A DNA stretch of 39,342 bases from Gemmatimonadota bacterium (GTDB lineage Bacteria > Gemmatimonadota > Gemmatimonadetes > Gemmatimonadales > Gemmatimonadaceae): assembly GCA_027622655.1 (NCBI GenBank), contig JAQBYI010000030.1, positions 1-39,342 on the forward strand, given 5' to 3'. A model generated the notes under the pieces. It searched no databases, was not told the DNA's origin, and was given only the letters and a program-made list of their open reading frames with translations. Position 1 is the stretch's first letter. The number at the start of each line of letters is the position of its first letter. A program made the translations under genes and the position numbers. Positions 1 through 2,783 of this stretch are shown piece by piece.

Positions 1-20
1 CCAGAAGGGGTTGAAGAAGT

Positions 21-60
21 GTCACCCATGTCGCCGGACACCTGTCACCTATGTCCCCGG
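21..60. repeat. Short direct repeat next to the cassette segment
   Basis: Two 17-bp copies, 21-37 and 44-60, differ at two positions and lie 23 bp apart. Each reads roughly GTCACCYATGTCSCCGG. They sit just outside the first attC-like site. Doubled motifs of this kind occur at the ends of some insertion sequences, so this may be an IS end remnant. No transposase is visible on this side and the origin is an inference. Confidence 0.4.
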
Positions 61-74
61 GTTGTACCAGACGC

Positions 75-184
75 GGCATAACGAGCAATTGCTGCTGACG
101 GCGCGGGACGGAAGCGGCTGGCTCGCTTTGCTCGCCTGCCGCATCGTTGATGGTGCGCCGCAGCAGAATTGCGAGCGTTATGCC
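75..184 (+). other. attC: attC-like recombination site 1 (integron cassette)
   Basis: The two arms pair over nearly their whole length. The outer boxes are GCATAAC (76-82) and GTTATGC (177-183), extended to a 9-bp pairing of 75-83 with 176-184. After a small asymmetric bulge, 85-90 pairs with 167-172, 92-97 with 161-166 and 99-104 with 155-160. G91 and A98 on the left arm remain unpaired. An R''/R' box pair, an unpaired spacer, an L stem with two extrahelical bases on one arm and a variable centre of about 50 bp are the hallmarks of integron attC sites. The overall length of about 108 bp is in the usual range. The R' box departs from GTTRRRY at one position. Confidence 0.72.
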
Positions 185-198
185 TCAATGTCACTGAC

Positions 199-660
199 GT
201 GAACGCCCTTGAACTAAAACTCCCACCGCTGGGTCTGGCGCTCTTGCTTGCCGTGGCGATGTGGTTTGTGGCACTGCAGCTACCATCGCTTGCGATTGCG
301 GTGCCCTGGCATCACCTCCTCGCAACTACGATTGTCTGCGTCGGCGTCATATTTCTCATGGCGGGGGGTTACGCGTTTCATAAGGCCAAGACCACCGTAA
401 ACCCCACCAAGCCCACCGCCACCTCATCAATCGTGACCTCAGGCGTCTATCGCCGAAGCCGCAACCCGATGTACGTCGGCGCACTGCTCGCGCTTGCCGG
501 GTGGGCGGTATTCCTGTCCAATGCATTGCCGTTCTTTTTCCTACCAGCTTTTGTCATGTACATGAACCGTTTTCAAATCTCACCCGAAGAGCGCGTGCTA
601 TCTGCCAAGTTTGGTGCCGAGTATGAAACGTACAAGCGAGCCGTGCGCAGGTGGCTATGA
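199..660 (+). CDS. Isoprenylcysteine carboxylmethyltransferase-family membrane protein in a gene cassette
   Basis: The 153-residue product has about four hydrophobic segments and the ICMT/PEMT-type methyltransferase signature: SGVYRRSRNPMYVG near residues 81-94 and an E-E pair at 130-131 followed by a conserved Y-x-x-Y-K segment near the C-terminus. In this family these elements bind S-adenosylmethionine and support methyl transfer to small or lipid-like substrates. The substrate cannot be told. GTG at 199 is preferred because it follows the preceding attC-like box by 15 bp, as in cassettes; an in-frame ATG at 169 would lie inside the stem. The stop abuts the second attC-like site. Its base composition is visibly more A/T-rich than the flanking peptidase genes, in line with transfer. 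Confidence 0.75.
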   Translation: MNALELKLPPLGLALLLAVAMWFVALQLPSLAIAVPWHHLLATTIVCVGVIFLMAGGYAFHKAKTTVNPTKPTATSSIVTSGVYRRSRNPMYVGALLALAGWAVFLSNALPFFFLPAFVMYMNRFQISPEERVLSAKFGAEYETYKRAVRRWL

Positions 661-751
661 GGCATGACCCCTTGTTGCTGCGGACGGGCCACCGGCACCG
701 TGCCAACGGAGCCCTCGTCACGGCCCGCCGCAGAACAACACGTTAGGCGCC
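661..751 (+). other. attC: attC-like recombination site 2
   Basis: The right box is GTTAGGC (742-748), an exact GTTRRRY match. The left box GCATGAC (662-668) is degenerate. The L stem pairs 672-676 with 734-738, 678-683 with 728-733 and 685-690 with 722-727. G677 and A684 stay unpaired on the left arm, in exactly the arrangement seen in site 1. The centre contains a small palindrome around 693-703. The site starts one base after the stop codon of the methyltransferase-family gene, where a cassette's own attC should lie. The cassette would run from about 178 to 742. Confidence 0.75.
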
Positions 752-855: not shown

Positions 856-1023
856 CGCGCGCCTTCACAGCTGTCCGGTGGCCAGCAGCAGCTCGTCGCC
901 GTGGCGCGCGCCATGATCCACAAGCCCTCGTTGATTCTCGCTGACGAACCCACGGGAAACCTGCATTCGTCGCAGGCGCGTGAGATCATGGAGCTGTTCA
1001 CCAAGCTGAATCAGGTCGGCGGC
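856..1023 (+). pseudogene. ABC transporter ATPase fragment (LolD/MacB type)
   Basis: A block of about 55 codons encodes the C-loop LSGGQQQ, then a Walker B segment [11 protein letters not shown] and the start of the following helix ([10 protein letters not shown]). These are typical of the ATPase that partners MacB/FtsX-like permeases. No Walker A is visible upstream in any frame before the attC-like site, and similarity stops abruptly near 1023 before the H-loop histidine. The product cannot be a working ATPase. It is a remnant between the cassette segment and the convergent M1 peptidase gene. Two ADOP permease genes lie at the far end of the window, but no link is implied. Confidence 0.75.
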
Positions 1024-1070: not shown

Positions 1071-2783
1071 CTATCGTCCTTTCCCGAACGTGGCTTCCAT
1101 AAGGACCCACAGGTTCGGATCCAGGCGCACGTCCTCCGGCTCCGACGGCACGTCGATCGTGAACGCGTTCGTTCTGGCATTGACCTGCACTCTATGGATG
1201 GCCGGAACCGGCTGGCCCCTGTGGTGAACCGCGACCTCCATCGGCATCGTAAACAGGCTCCCGTCCGTCTGCACCTGGTCGAGCGCAATGCGCACCTGTC
1301 GGACGCCGGCGTCATACGTCCAGCTGCCAGCGAGCTTGAGGGTGCCAGGCTTGTACAGCCACTGGTCGAAGAACCATTCCAGGTCCTGCCCTGAGGCTTC
1401 TTCCATCGCCAGACGGAAGTCGGCGGTTGTCGCGCTCGCGTTGAAGTGCCGCTGGTAGTACGTCCGGATGCCGCGCTGAAAGGCGTCCGAGCCGATCACG
1501 CCGCGCAGCATGTGAAGTGTCCAGCTCCCTTTCTGGTAGGTGTGCGAGCTGGTCACATCCTCCATACGGCTCAGGTTCTTGTGGACGATGGTGTAGTCGG
1601 GATGCGACGCCGCGAAGGTCATCACGGTGCGCCGACTGGCCTCGAGCCCGCGAATGAATTCGTCCCGGCCGTACGCGCGCTCGATGAACAACTGCGTGAA
1701 GTAGGTCGCGAATCCTTCGCTCAGCCAGACGTCGTCCCAGTCGGACTCCGTGACGGCGTTGCCAAACCACTGATGGGCGATCTCGTGGATGACGACGTTG
1801 CGCCAGCGGACGCTCCGCGTGCCGGTCACCGAACTCTCGTTGTAGAGGATCGCGGACGCCGACTCCATTCCGCCGGCAACGCTGCTGGCCTGAATGTTGG
1901 CCAGCCGCTCGTAGGCAAAGGGACCGACGTAGTCGCTGTAGAAGGCGAGCACCTGCTTGGTCGGTGACGCGAAGTCCGCGAACCCGGCGTCGCGATCCTG
2001 CGGATACACCCAGGTCTCAATCGCCTTCCCCTCGAACGTGTCCACCCGCTGCATGGCGAAGCGCGCCACGCCCAGCATGTACAGCCACGGCGCGATCGGC
2101 ACCGAGTTCCTCCAGTGCGTGCGTCGCATGCCGCCGGGCATGTCCGTAAGCTCGACCTGCAACCCGTTCGACACCACCTGATAATGGCTCGGTGCGGTGA
2201 CGATGAACTCGCTCGTGGCCTTGTCGTAGGGATGGTCGATCGTCGGCAGCCATTGGCGGGCGCGGTTCGGCCAGTTGTCGCTGAAGAAGGTGCGATCGCC
2301 GTGCTTGTTCTTGCCGGTGAGGAGCCCGGTGGCGGGTGTCCCCGAATATTGCACGACCACCCGCGCGCGCTGCTGTACCGCGCGCTGCTGTACCGCGCGC
2401 TGCTGTACCGCGCGCTGCTGTACCGCGCGCTGCTGCACCGCGGGCGGCGAGGCCAGCGGAATGCGCAGCTCGTCATTCGCGTGCGTGTACGGCACCGGTG
2501 CGCCGTTCAGCGTGACGGCAGACACGCGCATGCCCTTTCCGCCGCGAGCCGCATCGGCGTTGGCCAAGTCGAGTCGGACGGCGCGCGCATCCGGCGTCGT
2601 GAAGCGAAGGTCGAGCGTCAGTTCGCCGACGATCGCGTCGGTCGTGTCCGAGAGCTCAAGCCGGAAAGCGTAGTTGAGCGCATCGATGGCGGGGTTCTTC
2701 GGATACGTGTCGAACGGCGTTGATGGGGCGACGAACGTCACCATCAGCGCGAGCCGCGACGCGAATCTGGGCATGCGGCTCAT
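1071..2783 (-). CDS. Secreted M1-family metallopeptidase
   Basis: This 570-residue zinc aminopeptidase-like protein carries HEIAH at residues 333-337 and the third zinc ligand at E356 in LSEGF, giving the HExxH-x18-E pattern of the M1 family. A GGMES segment shortly before replaces the usual GAMEN exopeptidase motif. The N-terminus is hydrophobic and may be a short signal peptide, suggesting action on peptides outside the cytoplasm. The N-terminal beta domain contains five tandem AVQQR units (about residues 115-139) encoded by a 15-bp repeat. The gene overlaps the upstream M24 peptidase gene by 4 bp (ATGA), so the two are probably translationally coupled. The 3' end faces the ABC remnant. Confidence 0.9.
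2366..2440. repeat. 15-bp tandem repeat inside the M1 peptidase gene
   Basis: Five copies of CGCGCTGCTGTACCG run head to tail (2366-2440); the fifth has a C in place of one T. On the coding strand each copy encodes AVQQR. Because the unit is a multiple of three, copy-number change would alter protein length without shifting the frame. Confidence 0.95.

Follow-up and report, generated by a model that had tools for sequence, protein, structure and literature searches.

The beginning of the window, by which we mean the whole stretch of 39,342 nucleotides that was analysed, carries two attC sites with a complete gene cassette between them. What they mark is, with a probability of about 0.93, the distal end of a chromosomal array of integron cassettes in a bacterium of the Gemmatimonadaceae, which was shortened in the assembly by an insertion sequence (IS) of the IS481 family. 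Directly observed were the two sites and how they fold, the anatomy of the cassette, and the fact that both sites belong to the family's attC population. The integron gene cassette is genuine, and it is an ordinary example of a kind already known.

Two attC sites and the cassette between them

Both attC sites lie on the plus strand, site 1 at 76–183 and site 2 at 662–748, within 1–3 bases of the limits that the earlier note had proposed for two such sites. Against R1, a covariance model for attC described below, they scored 64.1 and 46.4 bits, corresponding to genome-wide E-values of 6.2e-14 and 6.9e-9, respectively. Site 1 is composed of R'' (76–82), L'' (85–104, with G91 and A98 unpaired), L' (155–172) and R' (177–183), and site 2 of R'' (662–668), L'' (672–690, with G677 and A684 unpaired), L' (722–738) and R' (742–748). 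The R'' and R' boxes read GCATAAC and GTTATGC in site 1 and GCATGAC and GTTAGGC in site 2, both right boxes being of the GTT type as had been described. The conserved AAC/GTT of the R''/R' boxes of attC sites is thereby present, with GAC replacing AAC in the imperfect R box of site 2.

The arms of the L stem are GCAATT-G-CTGCTG-A-CGGCGC and GCGCCG CAGCAG AATTGC in site 1, and TTGTT-G-CTGCGG-A-CGGGCC and GGCCCG CCGCAG AACAA in site 2. The earlier note had correctly read an unpaired G and then an unpaired A on the left arm of both sites, with pairings of 6 bp between and after them. On the bottom strand, these extrahelical bases correspond to T-N6-C in both sites, which is the arrangement expected of an attC L stem. 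When the sites were folded alone as single-stranded DNA, both strands of each were more stable than shuffled sequence, with z-scores for the bottom strands of −4.0 (site 1) and −2.9 (site 2). It had been argued that such identical geometry is hard to explain by chance, and this holds, but there is nothing special about it because it is the standard T-N6-G/C geometry of attC sites, and efficient excision of cassettes by IntI1 was described for T-N6-G and T-N6-C sites (PMC3053210). As the signature of attC sites, the shared geometry reflects common recognition by an integrase and does not constitute a new feature. The attC sites of relatives that served as seed for R1 follow the same plan, with a second unpaired base, mostly a top-strand A, that varies.

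The two R' boxes place a complete gene cassette of 565 bp at 178–742 on the plus strand, bounded by predicted cuts in the GTTATGC of site 1 and the GTTAGGC of site 2, both positioned by comparison with known attC sites. The cassette gene (199–660, plus strand), which probably starts with GTG, encodes a PEMT/ICMT-type membrane methyltransferase of 153 aa, with matches to Pfam PEMT (E 2.7e-12) and ICMT (E 3.2e-5). The NCBIfam model for isoprenylcysteine methyltransferase matched the protein partially and far below its cut-off, and the protein is likely to be a methyltransferase of small molecules or lipids. Its stop codon occupies 658–660 and R'' of site 2 begins at 662, leaving the gap of one base that had already been pointed out. 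A single gene flanked by two attC sites that point the same way, with its end close to the attC that belongs to it, is the anatomy of a gene cassette, and the distance of 479 bases between the sites is near the median of 518 in relatives.

In cassette arrays, R'' complements the 5' end of the cassette to which it belongs, which is the R' of the preceding site. Among 62 neighbouring attC pairs in relatives, R'' showed a mean mismatch of 0.37 to the upstream R' compared with 1.35 to its own R', and the match to the upstream R' was perfect in 48 of these pairs. For R'' of site 2, one mismatch to the upstream R' compares with two to the downstream R'; this is a single case with a difference of one base, in the expected direction. 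Within the family, homologues of the cassette gene are widespread (162 of 179 genomes). No attC site was found near the 29 loci of its closest homologues in the family that were checked; in a genome of the same genus, G005, an attC site follows 25 bases after the end of a distant homologue (32% identity).

For the function of the cassette, we envisage that the single-stranded bottom strand of each attC would fold into a hairpin with the two extrahelical bases (T-N6-C), and that this hairpin would be recognised by an integron integrase (IntI) of the type found in relatives. Recombination at the putative G/TT points of the R' boxes, as positioned from known sites, could then excise or insert the 565-bp methyltransferase cassette, and a past insertion by IntI presumably brought it to its present place.

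Downstream of the array end, a fragment of an ABC-transporter ATPase gene (862–1011, plus strand), which matches ABC_tran up to the end of the domain, precedes the conserved chromosome. The flank common to relatives begins at a gene for an M1-family aminopeptidase (1071–2783, minus strand; Peptidase_M1), with similarity to other Gemmatimonadaceae loci setting in at 1062–1087. The closest relatives of this peptidase, with 72–79% identity, come from metagenome-assembled genomes of Gemmatimonadetes/Gemmatimonadaceae, on which we base the placement of the host in this family. In relatives, the fetched stretches of the syntenic locus with the M1 peptidase contained no convincing attC site, a point against our main reading. 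In one relative (G001), an integron integrase gene (L168, contig C14 of G001, 1504–2445) shares a contig with the syntenic M1 gene, at a distance of about 15 kb, and no attC site was detected near it in a stretch of 19.9 kb (L168). Two further observations concern this flank: contig C40 of this genome contains a stretch with 85% identity to the isolated ABC ATPase fragment, and the M1 peptidase gene contains a tandem repeat of 15 bases, CGCGCGCTGCTGTAC, in about five copies (2364–2448), at which the alignments of relatives break.

The contig edge and the question of the integrase

The window corresponds to contig C39 and shares its first base; this contig is one of 115 in the 3.14-Mb draft genome. 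At its start is the right end of an insertion sequence of the IS481 family (1–68, minus strand), with a sequence that recurs unchanged at the end of a complete copy of about 1.3 kb in contig C37 (L002, 277–1568). The transposase of the complete copy matches rve and LZ_Tnp_IS481 and, slightly below the cut-off, NF033577 IS481 (E 1.1e-63); in C39 the start codon of the transposase lies at about base 25, and the gene reads leftwards off the contig. The same 67–68 bases terminate three other contigs. Seven bases separate the IS end from attC site 1, whose own cassette gene was cut off by the IS, and the contig edge is reached 75 bases upstream of the site. Since the window starts inside one of several copies of this element, everything upstream of base 1 is out of view. 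As a side observation, the element breaks the assembly at several places, and matches of 3–4 bases in its flanks could help to join contigs.

The earlier note had called the cassette integrase-less. The gene cassette with two real attC sites stands, but the absence of an integrase is unsupported because C39 begins inside a copy of the IS481-family element. With two attC sites and no integrase in view, the window reaches the minimum count of two attC sites in the current definition of a CALIN, a cluster of attC sites lacking a nearby integrase (PMC9024848), with its upstream neighbourhood beyond the contig edge. Within our main reading, a true CALIN and a complete integron that was cut off carry about equal weight.

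We put even odds on a true CALIN, in which the integrase was lost or the sites were inserted off-target by an integrase located elsewhere, and which persists without one. This would agree with the lack of any integron integrase above the cut-off in the 3.14 Mb of the draft, which is 99.67% complete; the best matches to the integron-integrase model comprised only the part common to other tyrosine recombinases, as in control genomes. Furthermore, the genome contains just two attC sites, the genomes G006, G009, G010 and G024 of the genus likewise have attC sites and no intI above the cut-off, and the ABC-gene fragment beside the array suggests a rearrangement. However, the contig ends in a repeated IS so close to site 1 that a missing left-flank contig may carry the integrase. 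Draft genomes are known to inflate CALIN counts, with integrons split between contigs and spurious CALINs arising at contig borders (PMC9024848).

The chances fall a little short of even that the array is the tail of a complete integron, with intI and more cassettes upstream of the IS on an unbinned or unassembled contig; a complete integron has intI and an attI site next to its array. In the bin, right ends of the IS were found on five contigs versus left ends on four. Matching bases beside the IS ends (CGCC, GAA and GAG) pair C80 with C83, C22 with C33 and C72 with C62, and leave C39 partnerless. This is suggestive, though not strong, evidence that the left-flank partner of C39 is missing from the bin, and as one such contig is apparently missing, the lack of intI in the draft is weak evidence. 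The tail of a complete integron would also fit the common occurrence of intI in the genus. It is opposed by a near-complete genome without any intI fragment, and the pairing of contigs by 3–4 bases is weak. The stretches retrieved next to the remaining IS ends (on C72, C80, C22, C83, C62, C33 and C37) contained no attC site.

The covariance model and its matches

R1 was made in this analysis from an alignment of 26 attC sites that lie close to integron integrases in different genomes of the same order, with the window left out and the attC structure laid out from the expected R and L boxes. In the seed alignment, 92% of the cells pair, and the 96 two-sided changes, compared with a mean of 34 after shuffling, are a count biased towards the structure because the seed sites were picked partly by their pairing. 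The pairing signal was lost when the partners were slid. An ad hoc attC pairing score, which yielded many false positives at low thresholds, served only for the collection of the seed, and all decisions on attC sites were based on the covariance model.

Within the window, R1 matched site 1 with an E-value of 7.7e-16 and site 2 with an E-value of 8.8e-11, and both matches are significant. The earlier note had recommended an attC covariance model (IntegronFinder or HattCI) for this purpose; R1 is a model of our own. At an E-value threshold of 0.001, 5 of the 18 genomes of the genus had no match to R1, indicating that the model does not ring everywhere. An Rfam scan of the window gave nothing above any family threshold, which does not count against the attC sites, and a search of a plasmid collection with positions 1–800 gave no match. 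It is very improbable that the two sites are chance palindromes or terminator-like hairpins merely resembling attC: although both are GC-rich inverted repeats and one R box of site 2 is imperfect, they were the sole matches of R1 up to E = 1 across the 3.14 Mb genome, with the sequence of the boxes, the spacing, the register and the position of the gene all in keeping with attC, and the model search refutes such a reading computationally.

Integrons of the Gemmatimonadaceae and related systems

The window had been assigned to a genome type that is not well known for integrons, which is contradicted by both our counts and the literature. Sites of the attC type were detected in 13 of the 18 genomes of the genus and in 140 of 179 Gemmatimonadaceae genomes (31 of 35 genera), and an integron integrase above the cut-off was present in 31 of 61 relatives. 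In view of this distribution of attC sites, integrons seem to belong to the normal make-up of Gemmatimonadaceae genomes. Gemmatimonadota were listed among the integron-bearing phyla in a 2021 review (PMC8618304), and a large integron was described in Gemmatirosa (PMC9024848). At all 10 Gemmatimonadaceae loci (10/10), intI and the cassettes were co-directional, which resembles the arrangement in Treponema (PMC3607928). The Gemmatimonadaceae are quite probably a large and little-studied reservoir of such 'inverted integrase' integrons.

What the present array contributes is a further cassette of a kind of system already known, this one encoding a small membrane methyltransferase, and it cautions against taking a cluster of cassettes at a contig border as evidence that the cluster lacks an integrase. 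A family-wide view of Gemmatimonadaceae integrons could merit its own study, as may the co-directional layout of intI and cassettes.

The array in the window shares boxes, stem, T-N6-C, cassette sizes and register with the chromosomal integrons of Gemmatimonadota, but differs from them in having no visible integrase and only one complete cassette together with the end of another. A CALIN likewise has two attC sites and no integrase in view, but here the contig border leaves the absence of the integrase unproven. In mobile class 1 integrons, attC sites like the one of ant(3'')-Ia have T-N6-G, whereas the sites in the window have C as the second base; sites with C in place of G at the second extrahelical base are also excised well by IntI1 (PMC3053210).
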